From Candidatus Aphodousia faecipullorum (GTDB lineage Bacteria > Pseudomonadota > Gammaproteobacteria > Burkholderiales > Burkholderiaceae_F), in assembly GCA_018714205.1 (NCBI GenBank), contig DVNR01000003.1, positions 1 through 51,407 of the forward strand: 51,407 nt of DNA, in the 5' to 3' direction. Below are positions 4,080-43,528 of this stretch, one piece after another. Both the position numbers and the translations under genes were made by a program. The stretch's first letter is position 1, and every line of letters starts with the position of its first letter. The notes under the pieces are model-generated. The model saw nothing but the letters and a program-made list of their open reading frames with translations, did no database searches and was not told the origin of the DNA.

Positions 4080-6026
4080 ATGCTCGATAAAGTAACGCTT
4101 CAAGATCCGGCTAATGAAATTTCACTGGCTCAGATTGAACTAGTGGATGGGAAACCTTATTCTCCGATTTTTCAAGATATTTATGCAACACGAAGTGGTG
4201 CTTATGGTCAGGCGTGCGCTGTTTTTTTGGCTCAAGGAGAGATTGCGTCCCGTTGGGCTAACAAAAAAGCATTTTGTATTCTTGAAAACGGTTTCGGTCT
4301 CGGAACAAATTTTCTTGCGACGTTAAAGGCTTGGCGAGAAGACCCTAACCGACCAGAATGTTTGGATTATGTCAGTATAGAGCGCTTCCCTGCGAGCGCT
4401 GCAGAGATTGAGCGTTATGCAGCACCGGAGGTGCGTGATTACGCCAAGGAACTGGCCGCATCGTGGCCACAGCCACTACCCGGTTTCCATGTTTTGGAAT
4501 TTGATCATGGGCGAGTTCGGCTTACATTAATTTTTCATGATGCAAGAAAAATTGCGTCGGAATTGAGCTTAAATTATGACGCTTTGTTTCTTGACGGCTT
4601 TTCTCCATCGAAAAATCCCCAGATGTGGGAACCTCATCTTTTGATGTCTTTAGCTCGTTATGCAAAACCGCAAGCGACTGTGACAACATGGTGTACGGCC
4701 GGGGCGGTTAGGGCGACGCTTACTCGAGCGGGCTTTTTGCTGGAAAAGCTGGCAGGGTTCGGGGCAAAATCAGAGCGCCTGTTCGGTGTGATGAGGGCTT
4801 CAAGATCGCATGATCAAAGAGAGGCCTATAAAGGTGATGTCATTGTTATTGGCGCCGGCCTTGCTGGGAGCAACGTGGCATTTGAATTGTCTCGTCGTGG
4901 CGTTCCTGTCCGGGTAATTGATGAAGGGGCTGTGCCCGGATTTGGTGCGAGTGCGCTTGCTTGGGGGATTTTGCATCCGCACTTTAGTCGTGATGATAAC
5001 TTATTGTCACGACTGTCTCGCGAAGGATTTCTTGCAACTTGTAGACGTTTGGATGAGCTTGAGCGATCAGGGGCGGAGCTTTCGGTTCGTGATGGGTGTT
5101 TGCAAATGGCTCACACGGACGAAATTTACGCGCAATGGCAGGAGGCTGTCAGTAAATCGCTTCCGTTTAAGTTGCCTGAGAGCTATGCGCGCTTTTTAAC
5201 TGCTTCTCAAGCCAGCGAAGAGGCGGGGATTGGTTTAAAGCGGGGAGGGTGGTTTTTCCCTTATGCCGGTATGGTTCGAGTTGGCGCCTTTTGCCGAGCG
5301 TTGATTTCAGCCAGCCAAGTACCTTATCGAGGAAATACACGAGTTGAACGACTTGTGCGTCGGGCGGATAAATGGGCGCTTTATGGTCAGTTCGGAGAGT
5401 TGTTAGATGAAGCCAGCCACATTGTTTTAGCCAATGCCTGGCAGGCGCAGCGTTTGTTGCAAACCCACTATTTGACATTTGATTGCCTCCCAGGGCGCAT
5501 TACGCTCTTGAGGGATACCGATTTAGTTGGGTTAAAAATCCCAGTTAGTGGTGAAGGCTACATGACCCGAATGCCTGACGGTTTTTGCGGGGTTGGTGCC
5601 ACGTATGAATTGCCGAGAACGGGACTTTGGACAGAAAATCGAGCCCACGAAGAGAATTTATCCAAGCTGGAGAGACTACTACTGAATCAGCCTCAGGTTG
5701 TTGTCACGGGAGCTTACTGTGGGCAAAGAGCGTCAGGCTTGGGACGTTTGCCTTATGTTGGTCCGGTGTGCGACGAGTTGGCTTGGCTCAGCCGCTGGAA
5801 GAAAAATCCCTCTCAATACGATGAGGATTCATCTTTGAATTTTGAAGGACTTTGGCTTCATAGCGCTTTTGGTTCTCGTGGCGTGTCAATGACCACAAGA
5901 ACAAGTCAGATATTGGGTGCTTTGATAACCGGAAGTCCTGTGCCGGCAGAAAAATCCCTTTTAAAGGGAATAGGATCCGCTAGAGCTGTGATCCGATGGC
6001 TCAAGTCAAAGGAGAATGCCATCTAA
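4080..6026 (+). CDS. mnmC: bifunctional tRNA mnm5s2U biosynthesis protein MnmC (methyltransferase + FAD oxidoreductase)
   Basis: N-terminal SPxFxDIYATRSGAYGQACAVFL; C-terminal VIGAGLAGSNVAFELSRRG dinucleotide-binding motif; ATG at 4080 chosen because the track ORF start overlaps the GNAT gene. Confidence 0.9.
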   Translation: MLDKVTLQDPANEISLAQIELVDGKPYSPIFQDIYATRSGAYGQACAVFLAQGEIASRWANKKAFCILENGFGLGTNFLATLKAWREDPNRPECLDYVSIERFPASAAEIERYAAPEVRDYAKELAASWPQPLPGFHVLEFDHGRVRLTLIFHDARKIASELSLNYDALFLDGFSPSKNPQMWEPHLLMSLARYAKPQATVTTWCTAGAVRATLTRAGFLLEKLAGFGAKSERLFGVMRASRSHDQREAYKGDVIVIGAGLAGSNVAFELSRRGVPVRVIDEGAVPGFGASALAWGILHPHFSRDDNLLSRLSREGFLATCRRLDELERSGAELSVRDGCLQMAHTDEIYAQWQEAVSKSLPFKLPESYARFLTASQASEEAGIGLKRGGWFFPYAGMVRVGAFCRALISASQVPYRGNTRVERLVRRADKWALYGQFGELLDEASHIVLANAWQAQRLLQTHYLTFDCLPGRITLLRDTDLVGLKIPVSGEGYMTRMPDGFCGVGATYELPRTGLWTENRAHEENLSKLERLLLNQPQVVVTGAYCGQRASGLGRLPYVGPVCDELAWLSRWKKNPSQYDEDSSLNFEGLWLHSAFGSRGVSMTTRTSQILGALITGSPVPAEKSLLKGIGSARAVIRWLKSKENAI

Positions 6027-16953: not shown

Positions 16954-18219
16954 TTAGAAGACGATGTAGGTAGCGATCAAACCGATTACAGCAACCGGAG
17001 CAGAACGCTTAACAATGTCCATCGGGTTCACACCTGCCAAACCAGCGACCAAAATCACACCGCCGGCCAACGGGGAAGCGGTACGGCCCAAACCGCCGGT
17101 GAAGGCAGCAAGCATACCCAAGTTGTGAATTTCCATACCGAAGGATTCAGCGTGCGGAGTCACGGCTTCGTTAAAGGCGAAAGCCGCAGCGTCACCGGAA
17201 CCGGTCATCACACCCATGATGAACGGACCAAATGCGCCACCGATCTTGGCCCATTCGTTGGAGTTTTGTAAGAATTCAACCAAGAGGTCAATAACACCAG
17301 CGGCGCGCAAGCCAGCAGCGAACACACCGGCGGCAATGATGATACCGAGAATCTTAGCGTAGCCACTGCCCATGCCTTCAAAGAACTTCGTCGTGCAATC
17401 TGCCGGGCTCGTACGAGTAACGGCTAAAGCATAGATAGCACCAACCAACATAGCGGTTGCCACAGAGATCTTGAAATTGAAGTAAAGCGTGCAAACAAGC
17501 AACAAACCGATCGGAACCAACGGAGCGATAGCGTAAGCGAGGTTGATCTTATCCGGCAAGTTAGATGCCATTTTTTGTTCGGCTGGCGTGCCGTTCTTGT
17601 CGGGACGCGTGTAATCTTTGTATACAAGGCAGATCACTGTCGTAGCAACAATCAACGTTGCGACAACAACAAGAACTTGCATAGAAACGGAACCGATCAA
17701 GTCCATCACATCCATGTTGGCCAACTTAGCAACGAAGACGTCATGAGAAACGCCCGGGTTAAAGAAGGCGGGGAACACGGAGGCAACCAATGCTGCGGCT
17801 GCAATAGCGGGCTTGAAGCCGGCGCGAACCAAAATCGGAATCAACGTCGGACCGACGGCAGCACAAAGACCTGCCGTAGACGGAATAGCCACAGAGCAGA
17901 AGCCGGCAACACACATACTGGCGGGCAACAAGAAAATGCCCATACTGCGCAACGGCTTGAGCAACAAGGCGACCAATTGGACGTCGCACTTCGTAAGCGA
18001 AATCACACCGGCAAAACCCATTGCCGAGCAGATGGCGATGATCAAGTTTGCGTTGGTCATCGACTTATCAAACTGTTGGAAGGCCATCATCGGTTCCAAA
18101 GAAGCGAATGCCATGACCAAACCGGCAGTGATAAGCACCATACGTGTTTCATAACGTTTAATAAGCGCCCAGACCGTCACGCAGACGACCACGAGGCTTA
18201 CGATGAGCGTATAAGACAT
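16954..18219 (-). CDS. DcuC-family anaerobic C4-dicarboxylate-type transporter, paralog 1 (divergent)
   Basis: 421 aa, multi-TM; KRYETRMVLITAGLVMAFASLEPM, ICSAMGFAGVISLTKCDVQLV, GSGDAAAFAFNEAVTPHAESFGM shared with three other paralogs. Confidence 0.8.
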   Translation of the reverse strand: MSYTLIVSLVVVCVTVWALIKRYETRMVLITAGLVMAFASLEPMMAFQQFDKSMTNANLIIAICSAMGFAGVISLTKCDVQLVALLLKPLRSMGIFLLPASMCVAGFCSVAIPSTAGLCAAVGPTLIPILVRAGFKPAIAAAALVASVFPAFFNPGVSHDVFVAKLANMDVMDLIGSVSMQVLVVVATLIVATTVICLVYKDYTRPDKNGTPAEQKMASNLPDKINLAYAIAPLVPIGLLLVCTLYFNFKISVATAMLVGAIYALAVTRTSPADCTTKFFEGMGSGYAKILGIIIAAGVFAAGLRAAGVIDLLVEFLQNSNEWAKIGGAFGPFIMGVMTGSGDAAAFAFNEAVTPHAESFGMEIHNLGMLAAFTGGLGRTASPLAGGVILVAGLAGVNPMDIVKRSAPVAVIGLIATYIVF

Positions 18220-18514
18220 GTTTTGTGCTCCTTGCGGGAAGAAAACAATTTGAAATATTCAGTCACAATTGGACCGATACCCCGCTATCTTAATCCGTTC
18301 AAATCTTTTCTTTGGGGATTTTTAGGGAAATATCCAAGTCAGATATCAGATAGCATTGACATTTTAGGATCATCAATGTTCACATTTCTTAGACTAATTA
18401 CTTAGAAACACAGCATTTTCCTGCTTTGTCCCAGGTAAATAAAAGGTAATTCGTAGAAAAAAGAAGTTTCCATTTATATAATCAGGTTGCTTTTTTGTTT
18501 TCTGGACGCAATCG

Positions 18515-19312
18515 ATGGATCGACTCTTATCTGATGACCCCAACCCTTTGCGATCGGCTTTGCCCGGCATGGCCAGTCGGGTTCCGCTTTTTGAACAAGT
18601 CAAGCGTTCGATTATCGCAAAAATTCAAGATGGCACTTGGCGCCATGATGATCAGTTGCCTAATGAAATCGAGATGGCCCAGCTTTTTCACGTGAGCCAA
18701 GGGACCATGCGTCGAGCCCTGAGAGAGTTAGTCAATGAGGGATTATTGGTTAGAAAACAGGGCAAAGGGACCTATGTCAGTAGTTACGAAGGCAGCTTTG
18801 ATTATTTCTACCATAAATTCATTCCCGTCCGACCAGATGATCCGGACAAACAGTGGAAAACAACGACAAAGCTCACGCTTTATGAAGTAATCCCTCCATC
18901 TCATCGCACGATGCTTTTGATGGGTATTGAAGATCCAACAGAAAAAGTCATTCACATTCGTCGCCTTCATTATGCTTGCTTGGATGAAGGGCATTTGCAA
19001 AGCGTGGATTCGTTTGATGAGCTTTTTTTGCGCCGTCGCTTTTTTCCCACTTTAACTGAAGAAATTTTCAGAGGTCAAAAGGCGAGCCTGTATCATTTTT
19101 ATCAAAAGGTCTGCGACGTGACGATCTTACATGTGCGCGATATTCAGAAGGCCACATTTTTAAATGCTTATCAGGCAAAGCTAGCCAATGTGCCGGTGCC
19201 TTACCCTGCTATTATTCAACAGCGTCAAACATTCGATATCAATAATAATTTAGTGGAATTGCGCTTTTTGACGACTGTGACTGATCGCTGTCACTTCGAA
19301 TACCAATATTAA
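18515..19312 (+). CDS. GntR-family regulator with UTRA-like effector domain (regulator 1)
   Basis: VPLFEQVKRSIIAKIQDGTWRHDDQLPNEIEMAQLFHVSQGTMRRALRELVNEGLLVRKQGKGTYV wHTH; C-terminal ...VELRFLTTVTDRCHFEYQY. Confidence 0.9.
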   Translation: MDRLLSDDPNPLRSALPGMASRVPLFEQVKRSIIAKIQDGTWRHDDQLPNEIEMAQLFHVSQGTMRRALRELVNEGLLVRKQGKGTYVSSYEGSFDYFYHKFIPVRPDDPDKQWKTTTKLTLYEVIPPSHRTMLLMGIEDPTEKVIHIRRLHYACLDEGHLQSVDSFDELFLRRRFFPTLTEEIFRGQKASLYHFYQKVCDVTILHVRDIQKATFLNAYQAKLANVPVPYPAIIQQRQTFDINNNLVELRFLTTVTDRCHFEYQY

Positions 19313-22031: not shown

Positions 22032-23318
22032 TTATTTATGTAAGCCGTTGGTTGCTTCAATGAGCTTGACTTGCACGCTGAAACCCACCGGCATACTCTT
22101 CACATCATCCGGATCAAAGTCCGAACGGTGTTGACCGTTGTGATCGGCTCCATAGTAGAAATGAGCCGCTTTGCCTCCGTGTTGTTGCACGCGGGCCATC
22201 AAAATGGTGGCGTCTTCGCTACCGCCTTTTTCACTGTAGTAGTCAACGTGATCGGCTCCGACGACTTCGCCGGCGCACTTTTCAATGAGTTTGGCGAGTT
22301 CCGGAGTTGGGTTCATTGTGAAGGCTTCACCAACTTTGGTGATCTTGTACTCAACGTCAAACGCTTCCGCATTGGCTTTCACTGCGCGTTCAACCTGAGA
22401 GAAAATGTATTGGCACAGTTCGTTCGTGGCGCCACGGACTTCCATTTGCATGGTGGCGTGAACAGGAACGACATTGCGCATTTCGCCTGCCATGAGTTTG
22501 CCGCAGCTTACGGTTGTCAAGCCGGCTCCATGACGCGGCAAGCTGCCGATCATGACGGCAGTGTGGCAGGCGGCCATCAATGCGTTACGACCGTCTTGAG
22601 GATTGGCCACCGAGTGGGCGGGTTTGCCGGTGAAGGAAACGTCAAATTTAATGGTGGCGTTGTAACCCGGCGAAGTGACAGTGACGTAACCTAAACGCGG
22701 TGTGCAACCGATGTGGCTTGCAAATAAATTATCGACATCGTCAACGATGCCGCTTTGAGCCATGGCCATGGCGCCACGCGTGCCTTCTTCGGCCGGTTGG
22801 AATAACAGTTTGATCGTGCCGCACAGTTCATCTTTGTGATCAACGATCCAGTGGGCGATAGCCAATCCAACACCGGTGTGGCAGTCATGCCCGCAAGCAT
22901 GCATTTGACCAGGATATTCGCTAGCGAATCCCTCCTTGTTCGGGAGGTGATTGGGATCCGTTGTTTCTGGAACATACAGTGCATCAATGTCAAAGCGCAA
23001 AGCAGTCACAGGGCCGGGACGACCGGTTTTCCAAATGCCTACAGCGCCGGTGTAACCTTGCATCGCATCGATATCTTCTTGCTTAACGCCCGCTTCAAGA
23101 GCGCGCTTCACACCCAGTTTAACTTCGTCGGGATAGCGACCCATTACATAATCAGGATTGATCACAGCGGTGCCTTCGAGCACTTCAAATCCCAATTCTT
23201 TAAGGCGATTAACAATAATGCTTGTTGTCCTGAATTCGGTCCAGCCGGTTTCAGGTTTGGCGTGCAGACTACGACGGAATTTCACCATCTCGTCTGTGTA
23301 TTGATTGTTGATATCCAT
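22032..23318 (-). CDS. M20 amidohydrolase, AbgA-like, paralog 2
   Basis: WTEFRTTSIIVNRL, MHACGHDCHTGVG, LLFQPAEEGTRGAMAM, GGSEDATILMARVQQHGGKA. Confidence 0.87.
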   Translation of the reverse strand: MDINNQYTDEMVKFRRSLHAKPETGWTEFRTTSIIVNRLKELGFEVLEGTAVINPDYVMGRYPDEVKLGVKRALEAGVKQEDIDAMQGYTGAVGIWKTGRPGPVTALRFDIDALYVPETTDPNHLPNKEGFASEYPGQMHACGHDCHTGVGLAIAHWIVDHKDELCGTIKLLFQPAEEGTRGAMAMAQSGIVDDVDNLFASHIGCTPRLGYVTVTSPGYNATIKFDVSFTGKPAHSVANPQDGRNALMAACHTAVMIGSLPRHGAGLTTVSCGKLMAGEMRNVVPVHATMQMEVRGATNELCQYIFSQVERAVKANAEAFDVEYKITKVGEAFTMNPTPELAKLIEKCAGEVVGADHVDYYSEKGGSEDATILMARVQQHGGKAAHFYYGADHNGQHRSDFDPDDVKSMPVGFSVQVKLIEATNGLHK

Positions 23319-23590
23319 AGTCGATATGCTCCGAAATATCGTTTTAACCGTAACGAACAGACGGTCGGGGAACCCAGCCCGAAAACTGTCCTAATGTAAT
23401 TGGCTCAAGAAAAACCGGAAGGCAATTTCTTGCCCTCCGGAAACGACTCATGCTGCTTTTTTTAAAACAGTAGGACTTAAGTTCACACTCATTTGGGAAT
23501 GAATCTATTGAAGTCGGTTCCCAAAAGGGCACTTCTATTTTTGTTCAACACGCTTGCAATCGCCTTTAGAAGTTTTGCTATGTTGGATAT

Positions 23591-23604
23591 CAGTTAACTG
23601 ATTG
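23591..23604. promoter_or_regulatory. candidate operator CAGTTAACTGATTG
   Basis: Perfect 10-bp palindrome CAGTTAACTG in divergent AbgA-like 2 / MFS promoter region; 14 nt identical to 29019-29032. Confidence 0.6.
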
Positions 23605-23663
23605 CTTTCCCGAGTTTAATCCTCTTTATAAGATTGACCGAAGTTTTCGACTAAGAGGTTTTT

Positions 23664-24860
23664 ATGCAAGATAACAAGCGTTGGTTTTACCTGGTGCTGT
23701 TCTGGGTGGTGAATTTTTGCCTGGGCTCGTTTTATGCTTGGAGCGTTTACTCCACATGGCTTGCACAACACTACTCGGTGATCGCCGGAGCGACAGTGAC
23801 GGTGGCATCGTTAACCTATGTTTTTAGCATTGGCGCGGCCATGAATCCGATAGCTATGGTCACCGCGGGATTTCTCACTGATCGGTTGGGACCTAGACCG
23901 GTCCTTTTCGGTGGTGGATTGATCGTGACGCTTGGGTACTATCTTATGAGCATCAGCACGGATTCCAGCTTATTGCTAATCGGATACGGAATTTGTTTTG
24001 GTATGGGGTCTGGTGCTTGTGTGATTGCAACGGTGACATCTGCTGTCAAGTTATTCCCGACGATGCGAGGTTTCGCCGGTGGTTCGGTAGGTGCCATGTA
24101 CGGCTTGGGGTCCGTTTGCTTGCCGCCGACAGCCAATGCCTTGGCGCAAAACTATGGAATTACCACTACCTTGCTATTTTTTGCGGTTGCTTGTTTTGTC
24201 ATCATTATCGCCAGTGCAAGTCTGATTAAGCTCCCGGCTTCTCGCTCCGTGGCACCTAAAGCTGGCAATGAAGATCTCAATTGGTTGCAAATGGTGAAGA
24301 CCTCGCGGTTTTGGGCAATGTTTGTGCTCTTTTTAGGAGCGACGCTTTCGCCGTTGATGCTTTTTTCTCAAACAGTCACGGTTGCCCAGGTTCAGATCGG
24401 TTTAGGCATGTCTGCGGCTGTACTTTCAGTTTCCGTTTTGGCTCTAGCCAATATGGCTGCGCGCTTTTTAGCGGGGACTCTCTCGGATAAGCTAGGGCGC
24501 GCTCTAACCTTGGCATTAGCGATTGCTATGGCCGTTTTAGGCTTGTCGCTCTTGTCAATGGCTGGTCAAGGCGATGCAGCTCTTTTCTATTTGGGTTTGG
24601 TTTGTATCGGCGCGAGTTTCGGTTCAAGTGTTGGGATTTTCCCAGGATATGTAGCTGAACAGTTTGGACCGGCAAACGCTAGTATGAATTATGGTGTAAT
24701 GGCGCTCGCATTCTCCGTTTCTGGCATTATCGGCCCGAATATTATTCGTATGAGTGTTGAGGGCGGCCAATACCAAATCGCCTATTTTATCGCGATAGGT
24801 ATTAGCGCAGTTGGCCTTTTGGCGGCCTGGTACTGTAAATCATTTGAGAAGAAACATTAA
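23664..24860 (+). CDS. MFS transporter, OFA (oxalate/formate antiporter-like) family, copy 1
   Basis: CLGSFYAWSVYSTWLA; AMNPIAMVTAGFLTDRLGPRPVLFGGG; GMGSGACVIATVTSAVKLFPTMRGFAGG. Confidence 0.8.
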   Translation: MQDNKRWFYLVLFWVVNFCLGSFYAWSVYSTWLAQHYSVIAGATVTVASLTYVFSIGAAMNPIAMVTAGFLTDRLGPRPVLFGGGLIVTLGYYLMSISTDSSLLLIGYGICFGMGSGACVIATVTSAVKLFPTMRGFAGGSVGAMYGLGSVCLPPTANALAQNYGITTTLLFFAVACFVIIIASASLIKLPASRSVAPKAGNEDLNWLQMVKTSRFWAMFVLFLGATLSPLMLFSQTVTVAQVQIGLGMSAAVLSVSVLALANMAARFLAGTLSDKLGRALTLALAIAMAVLGLSLLSMAGQGDAALFYLGLVCIGASFGSSVGIFPGYVAEQFGPANASMNYGVMALAFSVSGIIGPNIIRMSVEGGQYQIAYFIAIGISAVGLLAAWYCKSFEKKH

Positions 24861-24880
24861 ATTTATCCCCCTCTGATTGA

Positions 24881-24917
24881 ACCCCGGCACTGAATCCAGT
24901 CGTCGGGGCTTTTTTTT
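24881..24917 (+). terminator. terminator after OFA MFS copy 1
   Basis: CCCCGGCACTG...CAGTCGTCGGGG C T8. Confidence 0.75.
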
Positions 24918-24982
24918 CGTGATGATGTGATCGCGTACTTTCGCTACAATGGTCGCGGGTCGTTTGCCTATAAGGAGTTGAA

Positions 24983-26176
24983 ATGTCTTCGGCAATTCGT
25001 TGTGTGCCGGGTTTAAAGTCCGGTTCTAATCAATCGTACGATGCGTTCGGTGTTGATAAAGCCAATGAGGTTAGTGCTTTTCACCGCTCGATTCCCGGTT
25101 ATGCTCCCACCGAGATGGTGTCATTGTCAGCTTTGGCTCGAGAACTCGGTGTTGAAGCGCTTTACGTTAAAGATGAAAGTTCACGCTTTGGTTTAAATGC
25201 TTTCAAGTCACTCGGCAGCTCTTATTGTGTCGCGTCACTAATTAGTGAAAAGCTTGGGATGCCCACTCGTTATGAGTCTGTGGTAAGTGCTGAGGCCAAA
25301 GAAAATGTTCAGGGGATGACACTAATAACAGCCACGGACGGCAACCATGGCCGGGGTGTGGCTTGGACAGCGAAACTATTGGGTTTGAAAAGCGTTGTAT
25401 TAATGCCGAAAGGAACGGCGCTGGAGAGACTGCAAAATATTCAGAAATTGGGAGCGGATGCAAGTATTACCGATCTTGTCTATGACGACACAGTTAAACT
25501 AGCCGCGAAGATGGCTGAAGAAAACAACTGGCTTTTGGTGCAGGACACCGCATGGGATGGTTACGAAGACATTCCATTGCGGATCATGCAGGGCTATTTG
25601 ACGATGGCACTAGAAGCGGTTGAAGCACTGCCCAAGGCGCCGACACACCTGTTTCTTCAAGCCGGCGTGGGTTCCATGGCGGCGGCAGTTGCGGCATTTT
25701 TTGTTGAATACTACGGCAAAGATTGTCCGAAGGTCATTGTTGTAGAGCCAGAGGGAGCCAATTGCTTCTATGAAACAGCTCGTGCAGCAGATGGCGGCAT
25801 TCATCCTTATGTGGGCGATATGCATTCCATCATGGCAGGTCTTTGTTGCGGGGTGCCGAGTAAGTCAGCTTGGAGCATATTGAAAGAAACCGCGGATTTC
25901 TATGTGTCAATGCCGGATTACGTTGCCGCAGACGGAATGCGTATTTTGGGGGCGCCTTTGCCAGGAGATCATCGCGTGGTATCAGGAGAAAGCGGAGCTT
26001 CCACTTTTGGTTTGACAGCAGATCTTTTAAGGGATAAACGGTATCAAACGGTTAAGGAAATGCTGGGCCTAAATGAAGCTTCTCGTGTGCTTTGTATCTC
26101 AACCGAAGGAGCCACGGACCGGGAAAACTATCGTCGAATCGTATGGGATGGTGCCTGGTCGACTTGTTCAGACTAA
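24983..26176 (+). CDS. dpaL: diaminopropionate ammonia-lyase (PLP, fold II)
   Basis: ESSRFGLNAFKSLGSSYC (PLP lysine region), TATDGNHGRGVAWTAKLLG, MPKGTALERLQNIQKLGA, QDTAWDGYEDIPLRIMQGY. Confidence 0.92.
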   Translation: MSSAIRCVPGLKSGSNQSYDAFGVDKANEVSAFHRSIPGYAPTEMVSLSALARELGVEALYVKDESSRFGLNAFKSLGSSYCVASLISEKLGMPTRYESVVSAEAKENVQGMTLITATDGNHGRGVAWTAKLLGLKSVVLMPKGTALERLQNIQKLGADASITDLVYDDTVKLAAKMAEENNWLLVQDTAWDGYEDIPLRIMQGYLTMALEAVEALPKAPTHLFLQAGVGSMAAAVAAFFVEYYGKDCPKVIVVEPEGANCFYETARAADGGIHPYVGDMHSIMAGLCCGVPSKSAWSILKETADFYVSMPDYVAADGMRILGAPLPGDHRVVSGESGASTFGLTADLLRDKRYQTVKEMLGLNEASRVLCISTEGATDRENYRRIVWDGAWSTCSD

Positions 26177-26191
26177 CTGAAGAGTGGATAA

Positions 26192-26230
26192 AGACGCCTC
26201 AAGGATCAACTCCCTGAGGCGTTATGTTCG
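26192..26230. terminator. terminator between convergent dpaL and DcuC-like 3
   Basis: ACGCCTCA...TGAGGCGT. Confidence 0.6.
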
Positions 26231-26246
26231 TTTTGAGTCCTTTATA

Positions 26247-27524
26247 TTAGAACACAAAGAGCAGGGTTAACACACCGACAATCATGCCGGGTGCTGTACG
26301 TTTCACGAGATCCAAAGGATTGGAACGGCACAAACCGGCGATGACAATCACCACACCGGCAATCGGGCTCATCGTGCGACCAAGCGCACCGGAGACATAG
26401 GCCAAGTTGCCCAGGTTCGTGATGCTCATTCCGAAACTTTCTGCGTGCGGCGTGACGGCTTCGTTAAAGGCCATCGTTGCAGCGTCACCCGAACCAACCA
26501 AAATGGCCATTAAATACGGTCCTAACACACCACCCCATTGAGCATATTCGTTGGAGGACTTCAGTCCTTCAATCATGACATCAACAAGACCGGCGGCACG
26601 AAGTCCCATGGCAAAGACACTGGCGGAAACGATGATACTGACAATATCTGCAAAGCCTTTACCACAACCGGTAAAGAAGGTGGTGGTTGCTTTGGCTGGA
26701 CTTGTGCGTGTCACAATGATGGTGTAGATCGCGCCGATTACCATGGCTTGAGCGACGCCCATCTTTAACGCCGGCACACATGTATTGCCGAGAATCAAGA
26801 GCACGAGTGGAACAAGCGGAGCCAACGCGTAAAGCAAATTGACGTGATCAATGGTTTCACCGAAATTGCCGTCACCTTCGATCTTGCCGTCGCCTTTATG
26901 GTCACGCAGGGCAAATTCCGTCACAGTGATCATGACAACGCTGATGGCCCAAAGCACCATATAAGTGGTCATATTCTGAAGAATAAATTCCATGCCAGAA
27001 ATGCCAACATAAGAGCCCACCATGTTTTGGTGCGGCGAACCAGGGTTCAAGAATGAGCCGATCGTGCCGGCTAACACGGCAGCGCCGGCGCCGGCAGGCT
27101 TGATGCCAGCGCGGATCATAATCGGGATAAGCGTCGCGCCAACGGCAGCGGCGCAGCCGGCAGCGCTTGGGATCGCCGTGTTGACGATCAATGTCACGAT
27201 TGTGCAGGCAGGAATTAAGAAAACGCCCAAATGCTTAAGAGGGGCTGCGAGCAATGTGACCAAATGCAAGTCCGCTTTCGTGTAGCTCATCAAGAAAGCG
27301 AAGCCCATGGCGGCGGTGATGGCTTGCACCAAAGTGGCGCTAGTCATCATCTTAGCGAATTGGTCAAAGGCCTGCATTGGTGCCAATGAAATCAGGCACA
27401 GGAAAATACCAGCTGACAGAAGTGTTGTACGCACCTCAAACTTTTTCAAAAGGGCAGCGATAACGGCAAAAATAGTCGCTACGGCAATCCATGCGGTTAT
27501 TGACATAATGGGTACTCCTATCAA
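26247..27524 (-). CDS. DcuC-family transporter, paralog 3
   Basis: 425 aa; same conserved segments as paralogs 1, 2 and 4. Confidence 0.84.
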   Translation of the reverse strand: MIGVPIMSITAWIAVATIFAVIAALLKKFEVRTTLLSAGIFLCLISLAPMQAFDQFAKMMTSATLVQAITAAMGFAFLMSYTKADLHLVTLLAAPLKHLGVFLIPACTIVTLIVNTAIPSAAGCAAAVGATLIPIMIRAGIKPAGAGAAVLAGTIGSFLNPGSPHQNMVGSYVGISGMEFILQNMTTYMVLWAISVVMITVTEFALRDHKGDGKIEGDGNFGETIDHVNLLYALAPLVPLVLLILGNTCVPALKMGVAQAMVIGAIYTIIVTRTSPAKATTTFFTGCGKGFADIVSIIVSASVFAMGLRAAGLVDVMIEGLKSSNEYAQWGGVLGPYLMAILVGSGDAATMAFNEAVTPHAESFGMSITNLGNLAYVSGALGRTMSPIAGVVIVIAGLCRSNPLDLVKRTAPGMIVGVLTLLFVF

Positions 27525-28930
27525 GCGCGGATGCGTTCGGGTTCAGGGGTTGCCAGGTCGATCGTGATCGTTTCATAGCCTTTGTCTTGAAGCGCTTTTT
27601 CGCCTCGTTCAGTGGTGATGAAACGAAGACTCTTACCGTAGAGCACTCCGTCTTTCATGTTGATATGGCCGTCGACGTAGGTTTCGGTTGCTGTCAATGA
27701 CTTCATGTCGACAACCGTAATGTCTGCGACAGCGCCGTCGGTGAGATGACCGCGATCAAAGAGTCGCAAGTGACGCGCCGCGTTAAGACTTGCTTTGAGA
27801 ACAAACTCAGAAAGGGTGATAGCGCCAAAACGAACCAAGCTCAACCCCATCGGAATAATGACGTTACGCGGAATGCAACCACCGTCAGTAGACATGGCGT
27901 CAACGACAAAAGTGCCATCATCGCGCTTGGCTTGCGCAAGCATCAGGCGAGATACCGCTGCATTGACGGGGAAGCAACCAACCACATTTGTGGTGCCTTT
28001 TTCTTCCCAATAACGCATGGCGTCCAATCCTTCAAGCGCTTCGGTGATATAGCCGGTGTCGTGCAGTGTTAAAAGCAAACGACGCTTAAAGGCTTCACGA
28101 ATGCCATCAGCGGACACGGGAAGACCATAAATTTCCAAGCAGGTACGCGTTACAAAGTCGAGGACATTGCCATCGGCATCGCAAGACAAATGGGTGCCGT
28201 TATAGGGGCTTAAGTAGGCTTCAGACCAAATTTTGGGATGCGATTTCAAAAGTGAAAGGGCTTCATTGGCTTCTTCATCAGCAGCCTTCACGCGACCTCG
28301 GCAGTAAGAGTTGATATGAGCAAGGTGCAATCGCATGTTGCCAGCGGTTTCAACCGCTTGGCGCATACCCAAAATGTCTGAGTGTGCTGTTGTAGAGCCG
28401 GCATGCCAAGCCACGTAGACGTCTTTTTCGTTACAGAGCTCAATGGTGGTGCGGCAAGCGTCAATCGAGAGCGGCCAGTGACCGCCGACAAGTTTCACGC
28501 CAATGGCACCGCCTTCAGTTTGAGAATTGACAAAACCTTCGATTTGGGCGCGTGAAGGCGTGTCGGTTTTCCATAATTCAGACGGTTCCATGCGATCGAC
28601 TATAGCCACATTGATGCCACTGCCCGTTTTATGACCGTCGTTGAGCAGTTCGGCTAAAGGACCTGCCATGTCTAAACAGGTTGTTATACCGGCGAGCGCA
28701 GTCATGCGGGCACCGTATGGTGAACCGTAAACAGAGCCCAAATGCATGTGCGCATCAATGATTCCCGGAAATACGTATTTACCCGTGCAGTCATCAATGG
28801 CTTTAGCGCAGCCGGTCAGCTCTTCACCCACCGCTGCAATTTTTCCGTTTTCAATGGCAACATCCATGATGCCGTTTCGATTGTTAAGCGGGTCCACCAC
28901 GTGGCCGCCCTTAAGCAATACGTCCCACAT
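27521..28930 (-). CDS. amidohydrolase-superfamily metallohydrolase (hydantoinase/dihydroorotase/deacetylase-like)
   Basis: LLKGGHVVDPLNNRNGIMDVAIENGKIAAVG, PGIIDAHMHLGS, GVKLVGGHW (candidate carbamyl-Lys), overlaps DcuC-like 3 by 4 nt. Confidence 0.85.
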   Translation of the reverse strand: MWDVLLKGGHVVDPLNNRNGIMDVAIENGKIAAVGEELTGCAKAIDDCTGKYVFPGIIDAHMHLGSVYGSPYGARMTALAGITTCLDMAGPLAELLNDGHKTGSGINVAIVDRMEPSELWKTDTPSRAQIEGFVNSQTEGGAIGVKLVGGHWPLSIDACRTTIELCNEKDVYVAWHAGSTTAHSDILGMRQAVETAGNMRLHLAHINSYCRGRVKAADEEANEALSLLKSHPKIWSEAYLSPYNGTHLSCDADGNVLDFVTRTCLEIYGLPVSADGIREAFKRRLLLTLHDTGYITEALEGLDAMRYWEEKGTTNVVGCFPVNAAVSRLMLAQAKRDDGTFVVDAMSTDGGCIPRNVIIPMGLSLVRFGAITLSEFVLKASLNAARHLRLFDRGHLTDGAVADITVVDMKSLTATETYVDGHINMKDGVLYGKSLRFITTERGEKALQDKGYETITIDLATPEPERIRA

Positions 28931-29018
28931 AATCTCTCCTTTAGTACGGCCGGCAATAGATCAGAATTCGACCGATAGCCTTAGCGTATGCTTTGATCCT
29001 TATTTCGCCAAAATAACT

Positions 29019-29032
29019 CAGTTAACTGATTG
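29019..29032. promoter_or_regulatory. candidate operator CAGTTAACTGATTG
   Basis: Palindrome in divergent amidohydrolase / CapA-like promoter region. Confidence 0.6.
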
Positions 29033-29094: not shown

Positions 29095-30387
29095 ATGAAG
29101 ACAACTTTTATCGCAACCGGTGATAGCTTCATTACACGTCACATCGGAGAGTACGGCTACGATGGTTACGAGGACGTGTGTGACCTCATCGATCGTCACG
29201 AAGTGCGTTTTGCTAATTTGGAGATGACGTTTCATAACCAAGAGGGTTACCCTGCTGCGGCAAGCGGTGGCACTTGGGCAATGACGGAACCGGAAATGCT
29301 TGATGATATGCTGGATTTCGGGTTTAACCTCTTTAACACCGCTAACAATCACACCGGTGACTATGGTCAAGGTGGCATTGCGGCGACAATCCGTCATCTA
29401 AAAGAGCGCAATATGACCTTTGCTGGCACGGGTATGACGCTTCAAGAAGCCTCTCGCCCTTGCTATTTGGAAACCCGTCAAGCGCGTGTTGCCTTAATTG
29501 GTGTGACGTCCTCCTTTGATCCCGCGGCTCGAGCTGGCGCTCAGAGTGGTGATGTTGTCGGTCGACCTGGATTAAATCCGTTGCGGTATAAAACGGTGTA
29601 TCACGTCAATGGTGAACATTTCGACATGGTCAAAGAGCTTGCCCGAGTGACATTAGTCAATTGGCCGGTTGAGCAAAAAATTGAGTGTGGGTATTTGCCG
29701 CCCTTTGAGGAAGGGTCCTTGCCATTTGGCAAACTGAACTTTGTCCGTGATGACGAGGAATTTATTGAAACGGTGCCTCATGCCGGTGATATGAACCGAA
29801 TTTTGGAAGAAATTAAAGAGGCCAAACGTCAGGCGGATGTTGTGCTCGTGAGTTTCCACGTCCATGAAATGACCGGCAAGGACACGACGCTTCCGGCGCA
29901 ATTTCATAAAACGTTCTGTCATGCTTGTATTGAGGCCGGCGCTTCTGTTGTGATCGGTCATGGACCTCATGAGCTACGGGGCATTGAGTGCTATCAAGGT
30001 GGTGTTATTTTCTACAGCCTTGGCAACTTTATTTTTGAAACGGAAACAACAGCGGTTCAACCTGCGGACGCGTTCCAAGAGCAGCGTTTGCCTATGGATA
30101 TGAAAGTCGGTGCCTACATGGACAACCGTAGTCGAAATGGCACAATCGGTTTCCCTGTGATGCCCAATATTTGGCGTGCCGTGATGGCCGGTTGGACCAT
30201 CGAAGACGGTAAAGTGACAGAAGTCACTTTATATCCGATTGATCTTGGCATGAAAATGAGTCGTGGTCAACGAGGACTTCCGCGATTGTCCGGCGATGAG
30301 GACACGTTGCGATATTTGCAAAGTCTCTCGGAACCCTTTGGCACAAAGATTGAAATCAAGGATGGGGTTGGAATGATTCATCTATAA
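29095..30387 (+). CDS. CapA-family (PGA_cap) protein, no evident signal peptide
   Basis: TFIATGDSFITRHIG, NTANNHTGDYGQGGI, VLVSFHVHE, GHGPHELRGIECYQGGVIFYSLGNFIFE. Confidence 0.82.
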   Translation: MKTTFIATGDSFITRHIGEYGYDGYEDVCDLIDRHEVRFANLEMTFHNQEGYPAAASGGTWAMTEPEMLDDMLDFGFNLFNTANNHTGDYGQGGIAATIRHLKERNMTFAGTGMTLQEASRPCYLETRQARVALIGVTSSFDPAARAGAQSGDVVGRPGLNPLRYKTVYHVNGEHFDMVKELARVTLVNWPVEQKIECGYLPPFEEGSLPFGKLNFVRDDEEFIETVPHAGDMNRILEEIKEAKRQADVVLVSFHVHEMTGKDTTLPAQFHKTFCHACIEAGASVVIGHGPHELRGIECYQGGVIFYSLGNFIFETETTAVQPADAFQEQRLPMDMKVGAYMDNRSRNGTIGFPVMPNIWRAVMAGWTIEDGKVTEVTLYPIDLGMKMSRGQRGLPRLSGDEDTLRYLQSLSEPFGTKIEIKDGVGMIHL

Positions 30388-30556: not shown

Positions 30557-31297
30557 ATGCACAGCGCCAGGCAACGTTCTTTGTTTGAAGAGGTCCAAAA
30601 TCTTATTACGGAGAAAATTCGATCCGGGGTTTGGAAGCAAGGTGACGCGATTCCAAATGAATTGGAATTAGCCGATCTTTTTGGGGTAAGTCAGGGAACA
30701 GTTCGAAGGGCTTTACATGAGCTGGAATCTCATGGTGTTTTACTCAGACGCCAAGGCAAGGGGACGTTCGTCGCTAGTTTCCGCCGTAATTTAGAAAGCC
30801 TTCGCGAACGCATTAATTGGTTTGTGCCCGATGATCCGACCGTGTTGGAGTCACACTATCGACTGGTGTTGTTTGAGCAGGTCGATGCGCCGCTGAAAGT
30901 GGCTCGTCTGATGCACTGTGACGAAACGGAAAAACTCATCCACATACGTCGTGAATTGTATTATGGCAATGGGGATGTTGTGACCGCTTTCGATGACACC
31001 TACCTAAAGGCGAAAGATTTCCCGGGACTAACCGCGGAAGTCATCAGAGACGCTCACTCAGCGAATCTATATGTTCTCTACGAGGAGCGCTATGGTTACT
31101 TTATCACGTCAATGGAAGACTTGGCGCGAGCAGTCCTTTTGAATCCTTACCAAGCAGCAAAGGCTCACGTCTCAGTTCCCTATCCGGCAATCAGTCTGCA
31201 AAGGCGAGCCTACACGTTGGAGGGTCGTTTAATTGAATTGCGTTTTATCGTGAATGTGACAGACATCCAACATATGAGACTGCGCTCGGTCGGGTAA
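30557..31297 (+). CDS. GntR-family regulator with UTRA-like domain (regulator 2)
   Basis: QGDAIPNELELADLFGVSQGTVRRALHELESHGVLLRRQGKGTFVASF; UTRA-like C-terminus. Confidence 0.9.
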   Translation: MHSARQRSLFEEVQNLITEKIRSGVWKQGDAIPNELELADLFGVSQGTVRRALHELESHGVLLRRQGKGTFVASFRRNLESLRERINWFVPDDPTVLESHYRLVLFEQVDAPLKVARLMHCDETEKLIHIRRELYYGNGDVVTAFDDTYLKAKDFPGLTAEVIRDAHSANLYVLYEERYGYFITSMEDLARAVLLNPYQAAKAHVSVPYPAISLQRRAYTLEGRLIELRFIVNVTDIQHMRLRSVG

Positions 31298-38808: not shown

Positions 38809-39168
38809 ATGAGCTCAGACTTTCATTTTCCCCATCAGCATGGTCATCATGATGAAATGGCAGAGGTTCTACCGAATACCGAGCGATTTGACGCGGTCGC
38901 CAATGTTTTTAAGCAGTTAAGTGATCCCGTGCGTTGCAGAATTTTTTTACTGTTATGTCACTCTGAAGAATGCGTGATTAATGTAGCTGCCTTCATGGAA
39001 ATGAGCAGTCCGGCGGTTGCACATCATTTGCGGTTATTAAAATTCGCCGGTTTAGTCCAGAGCCGTCGAGAGGGGAAAGAAGTATTTTATCGCGCGGCCG
39101 ATTCCGAGTTGGCCCAAGCTTTGCACCATATGATTGAAAAGGTCATGCATCTATCGTGTGCAAAATAG
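38809..39168 (+). CDS. ArsR/SmtB-family metalloregulator
   Basis: DAVANVFKQLSDPVRCRIFLLLCHSEECVINVAAFMEMSSPAVAHHLRLLKFAGLVQSRREGKEVFYRA. Confidence 0.92.
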   Translation: MSSDFHFPHQHGHHDEMAEVLPNTERFDAVANVFKQLSDPVRCRIFLLLCHSEECVINVAAFMEMSSPAVAHHLRLLKFAGLVQSRREGKEVFYRAADSELAQALHHMIEKVMHLSCAK

Positions 39169-39242: not shown

Positions 39243-39422
39243 ATGACAATGTTATTTAAGTTAATTCGTAACACCACGTCCATTGTGACTTTTGCAGGAA
39301 AACGCCTTCTAATTGGCCCGATGGCACCTATCCCATTATTCCTGACGCATTGCAATTTTGATTATTTGACGAAACGGTCATGCAATGCCTACCCCAATGC
39401 TGAAGAAGCAGTTTTGGCATGA
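39243..39422 (+). CDS. 59-aa small ORF downstream of arsR-like gene
   Basis: ATG after AAAGGAGAAT; MTMLFKLIRNTTSIVTFAGKRLLIGPMAPIPLFLTHCNFDYLTKRSCNAYPNAEEAVLA; below length cut-off of supplied track. Confidence 0.45.
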   Translation: MTMLFKLIRNTTSIVTFAGKRLLIGPMAPIPLFLTHCNFDYLTKRSCNAYPNAEEAVLA

Positions 39423-42497: not shown

Positions 42498-42647
42498 TGG
42501 AATGATATTAAGTTTGGGAAGAAATAAAGAATTAGGTGCCAAGAAATCCTGTGGTCAAACATGAGAGGAATTGGCACTTTTAATTTATTAAAGAATTCAT
42601 TCAGTATTCTTTTGGCTCGCTAAATCTCTGATTAGGGATCAACCTCA

Positions 42648-42661
42648 AACGGTTAACTGTT
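42648..42661. promoter_or_regulatory. candidate operator AACGGTTAACTGTT upstream of GntR regulator 3
   Basis: Shares GTTAACTG core with sites at 23591 and 29019. Confidence 0.5.
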
Positions 42662-42736
42662 ATTGAAAATTCTTATTTGTTTTCTGTATAACTCGGCAGT
42701 TTCGATGATTTGTTCAAAATTTAAAGGAGCTTGACG

Positions 42737-43528
42737 ATGCCTTTGGATTCTCCTTACGACAATTCCGTTGAATCTCTGATTTCTTTTACCCCTAAAGCAA
42801 CGCGTTACGCCCAAGTTAAAAGGGAAATAATTGATCATATTCAAAAGGAAATATGGCCGTACGGTTACAAATTACCAAGCGAAATTCAATTGGCTCAAAT
42901 TTTTAAAGTGAGTCAGGGGACAATGCGTAGGGCATTGCGCGATCTCGTTCAGGAAGGATTCTTGATTCGGCATCAGGGACGAGGAACTTTTGTAAATAGT
43001 TATAGCGCAAATTTCGATCTCTTCTACAAAAAGTTTGTTCCTATCAGAGCAGATGATCCGAACAAGACTTGGAAGACAGTGACTCGAATGACTTTATTTG
43101 AGGTCATTCCGATAAATCTCCAGATTGCTTCTTTGATGCAAACTAACGATCTAACCGAAAAAATCATTCATATTCGGAGACTGCATTACGCAAAATTGGA
43201 CGATCAGAATATTCGTAGGGTTGATGTGTTCGGTGAACTTTTCCTAAGACAACTTTTCTTTCCTACACTCACTGAAACGGTCTTCCGTGGTCAAAAGAAC
43301 AGCTTGTACGCTTTTTATCAGAATACTTTGGGTGTAACCATCATGCATTCCAGAGATATTATTAAAGCCGTGTTTTTAACTCAAGAGCAAGCGCGCCTTG
43401 CTCATGTGAGCTATCCTTACCCCGGATTGGCGTTGCAGCGCCAATCTTATGACATCAACAATAATATCGTGGAACTGCGCTACCAAGTTTGTCTGACTGA
43501 TCGATGTCATTTAGAGTGCCTTAACTAA
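42737..43528 (+). CDS. GntR-family regulator with UTRA-like domain (regulator 3)
   Basis: YGYKLPSEIQLAQIFKVSQGTMRRALRDLVQEGFLIRHQGRGTFVNSY; closest to regulator 1. Track start is 42731; ATG at 42737 (MPLDSPYDN) after AAAGGAGCTTGACG preferred. Confidence 0.9.
   Translation: MPLDSPYDNSVESLISFTPKATRYAQVKREIIDHIQKEIWPYGYKLPSEIQLAQIFKVSQGTMRRALRDLVQEGFLIRHQGRGTFVNSYSANFDLFYKKFVPIRADDPNKTWKTVTRMTLFEVIPINLQIASLMQTNDLTEKIIHIRRLHYAKLDDQNIRRVDVFGELFLRQLFFPTLTETVFRGQKNSLYAFYQNTLGVTIMHSRDIIKAVFLTQEQARLAHVSYPYPGLALQRQSYDINNNIVELRYQVCLTDRCHLECLN

Follow-up and report, generated by a model that had tools for sequence, protein, structure and literature searches.

The 51,407-nucleotide stretch of contig DVNR01000003.1 from the chicken-gut bacterium Candidatus Aphodousia faecipullorum (assembly GCA_018714205.1; hereafter the window, at its full length) contains an island of transporter and amidohydrolase genes interspersed with three GntR-UTRA regulators, GntR1, GntR2 and GntR3. 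Two divergent promoter regions of this island share an identical 14-mer, CAGTTAACTGATTG, which raises the question whether the repeat is an operator and, if so, which protein reads it. We propose that its conserved unit, the 12-bp palindrome TCAGTTAACTGA, is very probably the operator of a GntR/UTRA regulator of the HutC type, most likely GntR1, acting as a ligand-released repressor of a local regulon. If so, a transporter/amidohydrolase island of gut Burkholderiales that has so far gone uncharacterised would gain a named regulator and an operator open to testing.

Both copies of the 14-mer are present without mismatch at 23591-23604 and 29019-29032, as an earlier note on this DNA had reported, and the first lies ~60 bp upstream of an MFS transporter gene. 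The note had also called for a genome-wide scan. In the whole assembly (G000; 1,813,408 bases in 84 contigs, 88.6% complete) the 14-mer is not common: these two copies are the only ones, and the 10-mer CAGTTAACTG is confined to the same two places. With one mismatch permitted, the 10-mer is not enriched genome-wide (37 matches per strand against 106 for a reversed control pattern). The core of the 14-mer is the palindrome at 23590-23601 and 29018-29029. A CTTTC that the note had placed after each copy does occur in both. Its offset differs between them (GATTGCTTTC and GATTGACTTTC) and the L020 orthologue has not retained it (GATTGTTTCG); we therefore do not count it as part of the motif. Other matches in the same genome were treated as chance, namely on contigs C28 (in a CCCTC...GAGGG hairpin), C37 (in an open reading frame, ORF) and C83 (shortly after an M20 gene). 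The same applies to exact copies in G013, G020 and G022, nearly all of which lie within ORFs and have no relation to GntR islands.

A 16-bp weight matrix, trained solely on sites from three other Candidatus Aphodousia species (G003, G004 and G006), gives the two reported sites the highest scores in the window, 23.3 bits for the first rank and 22.9 for the second. In 60 shuffled windows no position attained 22.9 bits; the shuffle maxima averaged 11.1 and topped at 17.5 bits. The third and fourth ranks (18337-18352, 17.0 bits; 42647-42662, 13.9 bits) fall below the largest shuffle maximum and therefore rest on their position, the third also on conservation. The corresponding sites, none of which has an assigned strand, are:

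23590-23601: predicted operator TCAGTTAACTGA in the divergent region between an M20 amidohydrolase gene (M20_2) and the MFS gene, centred 68.5 bp before the start codon of MFS; matrix rank 2.
29018-29029: predicted operator TCAGTTAACTGA between the amidohydrolase (minus strand) and CapA (plus strand) genes, 87 bp and 65 bp from the respective start codons; matrix rank 1.
18339-18350: variant predicted operator TCAGATATCAGA in the DcuC1/GntR1 divergent region; matrix rank 3, with same-region sites in G004 and G006.
42649-42660: degenerate variant ACGGTTAACTGT upstream of GntR3; matrix rank 4, doubtful as a GntR1 operator.

Is the palindrome kept where the surrounding DNA is not? Phylogenetic footprinting, another check proposed at the outset, compared the orthologous islands of the same three species and found it retained at four regions. 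Between the amidohydrolase and CapA genes it is exact in G003 (L020/L079) and reads TCAGTTACCTGT in G006 (L019). In the MFS region it is exact in G006, which has a second site, TCAGATATCTGA, and exact on contig C104 of G003; a second MFS copy of G003 has TCAGTTAACCTA, and G004 has ACAGTTAACTGA. The DcuC2 upstream region has the exact palindrome in G003 and TCAGTTATCTGA in G004. The DcuC1/GntR1 intergenic region has exact TCAGTTAACTGA in G004 (L089:8958), TCAGATAACAGT in G006 (L088:1686) and TCAGATATCAGA in the window. The earlier statement that 18220-18514 holds no copy is thus right for exact copies and misses this variant at 18339-18350. The intergenic DNA around the conserved sites has otherwise diverged among the species, and the central bases vary among sites (GATATC, GATAAC, GGTAAC). 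A second CapA paralogue also has upstream sites, TCAGATAACCGA at G000:C51:13437-13448 (L257:1501) and TCAGATAACTGA at G004:C1:74763-74774 (L260:1501), so the predicted regulon extends outside the window to genes such as CapA2 on contig C51.

Conservation at these promoters poses the question of the binder, for which the window offers three candidates. Each combines an N-terminal GntR winged helix with a C-terminal UTRA domain, above both Pfam cut-offs:

18515-19312, plus strand: GntR1, GntR-UTRA regulator with recognition helix SQGTMRRA; Pfam GntR and UTRA.
30557-31297, plus strand: GntR2, GntR-UTRA paralogue with helix SQGTVRRA, downstream of CapA; possible co-regulator.
42737-43528, plus strand: GntR3, GntR-UTRA paralogue with helix SQGTMRRA; the ATG start at 42737 is preferred over a TTG at 42731.

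The exact 12-mer occurs in four of nine genus genomes (G000, G003, G004 and G006), and a GntR1 orthologue (67-76% identical to the window protein) is found in these four and no others; the remaining five have neither. Under random labels such agreement is expected 1 time in 126. The sample is nine genomes, several of them incomplete and from related species, and we take the co-occurrence as support, not proof. With the looser pattern TCAGWTAWCNGA, three of the genomes without GntR1 have any match, none of them beside DcuC, M20, MFS or CapA genes. G004 has GntR1 and no close GntR2 or GntR3, yet carries sites at DcuC1/GntR1, DcuC2, MFS and the CapA paralogue. GntR1 is thus the likeliest binder on present comparisons. 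The earlier idea that a local GntR/UTRA regulator has a common operator here is supported in that the palindrome is conserved in relatives and co-occurs with GntR1, and its architecture is found again in other genera, as described below.

The same data bear on a reading in which the operator is real and GntR2 occupies the CapA/amidohydrolase site, with the three paralogues sharing or competing for sites. GntR2 is the gene next after CapA and its product shares the SQGTxRRA helix, and G084 has a GntR2-like protein (44% identity) beside CapA, an amidohydrolase and two such sites. G004, however, keeps its sites, including one at its CapA paralogue, without a close GntR2 or GntR3, and the GntR2 locus of G006 has only a degenerate site. 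We consider this division of labour a serious possibility, though not the favoured one.

Does the assignment hold beyond the genus? The scan covered every palindrome that fits the scheme abcdNe-e'Nd'c'b'a', 1,024 in total; up to one mismatch was allowed, and the P values treat positions as independent. In the genus island upstream regions, TCAGNTANCTGA ranks 1 of 1,024, with 13 matches against 0.32 expected in a set that includes the two seed sites. Twelve islands from other genera, unused in defining the motif, gave TCCGNTANCGGA as the top palindrome (9 matches against 0.24 expected). It has the same architecture with one base pair changed, and its sites lie upstream in MFS/DcuC1, DcuC2/GntR and GntR regions. 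The architecture common to both sets is TC[AC]GNTANC[GT]GA. All nine SQGTxRRA loci from other genera have sites; five loci whose GntR helices are of the SIGS, SIGT or SVGT type have zero exact sites. In the tree, all SQGTxRRA proteins fall into one supported clade (98/96), which includes one copy with a changed helix (GntR2b of L088). Its two main branches correspond to a sub-clade with mostly TCCG-type sites and one with TCAG-type sites, the second branch being moderately supported (88/71). From these comparisons we conclude that the palindrome is the predicted operator of the GntR/UTRA proteins in the SQGTxRRA-helix clade. A contig search using GntR1 alone as query gave no match.

These results bear on two further explanations. 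Short exact repeats do arise in a window of 51 kb, and the lack of enrichment of one-mismatch copies would suit two chance copies of the 14-mer or a short mobile repeat. The conservation of the palindrome across species, the matrix trained on other species and the independent re-discovery in other genera refute this account, to which we give almost no credence. The second, an unrelated regulator with a GTTAAC core whose site lies in the island by coincidence, is only slightly less improbable. The E. coli TrpR operator is CTAGTTAACTAG, and TrpR sites have a GTTAAC core. The centre is thus alike, whereas the protein family is different, the central bases of the sites vary and the sites track GntR clade membership across genera. 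TrpR itself was rejected as binder, the assembly having no Trp repressor (PF01371) at its completeness of 88.6%.

How does the site compare with known GntR operators? The HutC-subfamily consensus is NyGTMTAKACNy, with GT and AC 4 bp apart (PMC4494728). The site described here is likewise an even-centred palindrome with a central TA, whereas only 2 bp separate its GT from its AC and the T of the GT varies (GATATC, GGTAAC). The earlier note had seen in it the GT...AC half-sites typical of GntR operators; since the site does not have the GT-N4-AC spacing and instead conserves TC[AC]GNTANC[GT]GA, this resemblance is coincidental. The closest solved structure to GntR1 by sequence is YvoA, and GntR1 has the same domain architecture as NagR/YvoA and DasR, which bind dre sites (PMC4333415). 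In NagR, Arg38 and Arg48 read two guanines, G-5 and G-4 (PMC4333415). The aligned residues of GntR1 are Ile and Gln, so the NagR-type contacts are not kept, and in its predicted site position -5 is C and position -4 is A or C.

In operator form the closest known relative is SdhR, itself little studied, which is listed as an exception to the HutC consensus with the operator TCTTATGTCTTATATAAGACATAAGA (PMC4494728). Both systems combine an SQGT-helix GntR-UTRA protein with an even-centred 12-bp palindrome that has outer TC...GA and central TA, both have a site in the regulator's own upstream region, and both show extra half-sites at 7-bp steps, though the signal here is modest (z 2.7). SdhR differs in pairing SQGTVRKA with TCTTATATAAGA, a combination that none of the island GntRs has; these pair SQGTxRRA with TC[AC]GNTANC[GT]GA and form a separate clade in the tree. 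The neighbouring genes also differ, being sdh genes there and DcuC, M20, MFS and amidohydrolase genes here. Nearly all SQGTVRKA loci that we examined have TCTTATATAAGA upstream, exact or one mismatch away, and TCVGNTANCBGA occurs in none of the loci; one of them, L165, is followed by sdh-like ORFs (recognised by eye). Literature searches on operator sequences, Sutterella GntR regulons and SdhR returned nothing relevant.

Helix type and operator base thus change together in a natural series, from SQGTVRKA with TCTTATATAAGA to SQGTxRRA with TC[AC]GNTANC[GT]GA. The correlation of RKA and RRA with the inner operator bases is only suggestive, because other residues differ between the clades too. 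Tentatively, SQGTxRRA proteins might represent an undescribed HutC-type clade with TC[AC]GNTANC[GT]GA as its own operator code, related to SdhR via the SQGT helix. The Lys-to-Arg helix change would accompany a change of the inner TT to [AC]G, and the island paralogues GntR1 and GntR3 would split operators between them (with AAAGGTAGCTTT in G006). Such a series could help to decode DNA choice by GntR/HutC proteins that do not have the usual guanine-reading arginines.

The 7-bp steps come from half-site similarity over 28 sites, which gives a weak peak at that offset. Overlapping palindromes at this spacing (e.g. TCCGATATCAGATATCCGA) are seen at L136:12648-12666, L138:8023-8041, L134:7866-7884 and L135:11643-11661. 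They resemble the extra symmetry of the SdhR operator and could permit cooperative or alternative dimer binding. On the basis of the weak peak we also mark one possible accessory element in the window:

23583-23589, plus strand: TTGGATA, a possible accessory half-site that precedes the left half-site TCAGTTA by 7 bp.

What would such an operator control? The predicted and possible targets in the window are:

16954-18219, minus strand: DcuC1 transporter, predicted target, divergent from GntR1; placed in the DcuC family via similarity to its paralogues DcuC3 and DcuC4; upstream sites in four species.
22032-23318, minus strand: M20 amidohydrolase (M20_2; Pfam Peptidase_M20), possible target; site 271 bp upstream.
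23664-24860, plus strand: MFS transporter (lactate/oxalate-formate type), in a predicted target operon with diaminopropionate ammonia-lyase.
24983-26176: diaminopropionate ammonia-lyase, downstream of MFS in the same predicted target operon.
26247-28930, minus strand: operon of an amidohydrolase (27521-28930) and DcuC3 (26247-27524), predicted target.
29095-30387, plus strand: CapA/PGA_cap-family protein, similar to the lasso-peptide epimerase MslH; predicted target.

This set of DcuC-type transporters, M20 amidohydrolases, MFS transporter, ammonia-lyase, amidohydrolase and CapA suggests uptake and hydrolysis of amino-acid derivatives, and the effector is therefore probably one of these. We propose that GntR1, as a dimer, binds the palindromes that lie a short way upstream of MFS and CapA, where it would block transcription of these genes. 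An amino-acid-derived substrate of the transporter and hydrolase genes would then bind the UTRA domain and release GntR1. The variant site at 18339-18350 would provide autoregulation. GntR2 and GntR3, which have the same recognition helix, may bind some of the same sites.

The position of the sites would also suit a different mode of action at the same operator, in which GntR1 is an activator bound immediately before the -35 region. The centre of the palindrome lies about 69-72 bp before the MFS and CapA start codons, which by eye fits such a position, and some GntR regulators can both activate and repress. Against it, repression prevails among the characterised HutC-type regulators, and the distance is different at several sites (L133, L134 and the second L088 site). 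We therefore regard activation as unlikely and retain repression by GntR1 as the preferred model.

Several observations weigh against this model. A sigma-70 promoter scan gave no good match at the MFS, CapA or GntR3 promoters, which makes the placement of the operator with respect to the promoter, and with it repression, a prediction. The helix is common to GntR2 and GntR3, so that either paralogue may be the binder at individual sites. In G003 no site lies in the stretch immediately before GntR1. The CapA/amidohydrolase regions are partly alignable by descent, so the site counts are not fully independent, and further sites or regulators may be missing from the incomplete assembly.

The sequence before GntR3 is a case of its own. 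The earlier note had described AACGGTTAACTGTTATTG at 42648-42665 as a variant of the motif, and this sequence is indeed present. As an operator it is the weakest member of the set, and the one orthologous GntR3 locus available, in G006 (L091), has no ACGGTTAACTGT-type copy upstream. Reading that locus (G006:C1) by eye shows AAAGGTAGCTTT before GntR3, whose start is at 2103. DcuC4, which starts at 5504 on the minus strand, is preceded by AAAGCTACCTTT, the exact reverse complement of AAAGGTAGCTTT. As a lead only, AAAGGTAGCTTT may be a separate, GntR3-specific operator with a GNTANC core and AAA/TTT flanks.

Two further observations concern the gene content of the island. G006 has an additional GntR2-like copy with helix SLGTVRKA (L088:9785-10558, contig C15) between its ammonia-lyase and DcuC3 genes; it has no counterpart in the window, and no operator was seen upstream of it. 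In the window itself, a short remnant at 39244-39420, RNTTSIVTFAGKRLLIGPM, lies between the regulator-like ORF at 38809 and DcuC4. It resembles the start of an ORF in G003 (L097: RSATSIVTFADKRFLIDPM) and is probably what is left of a decayed gene.

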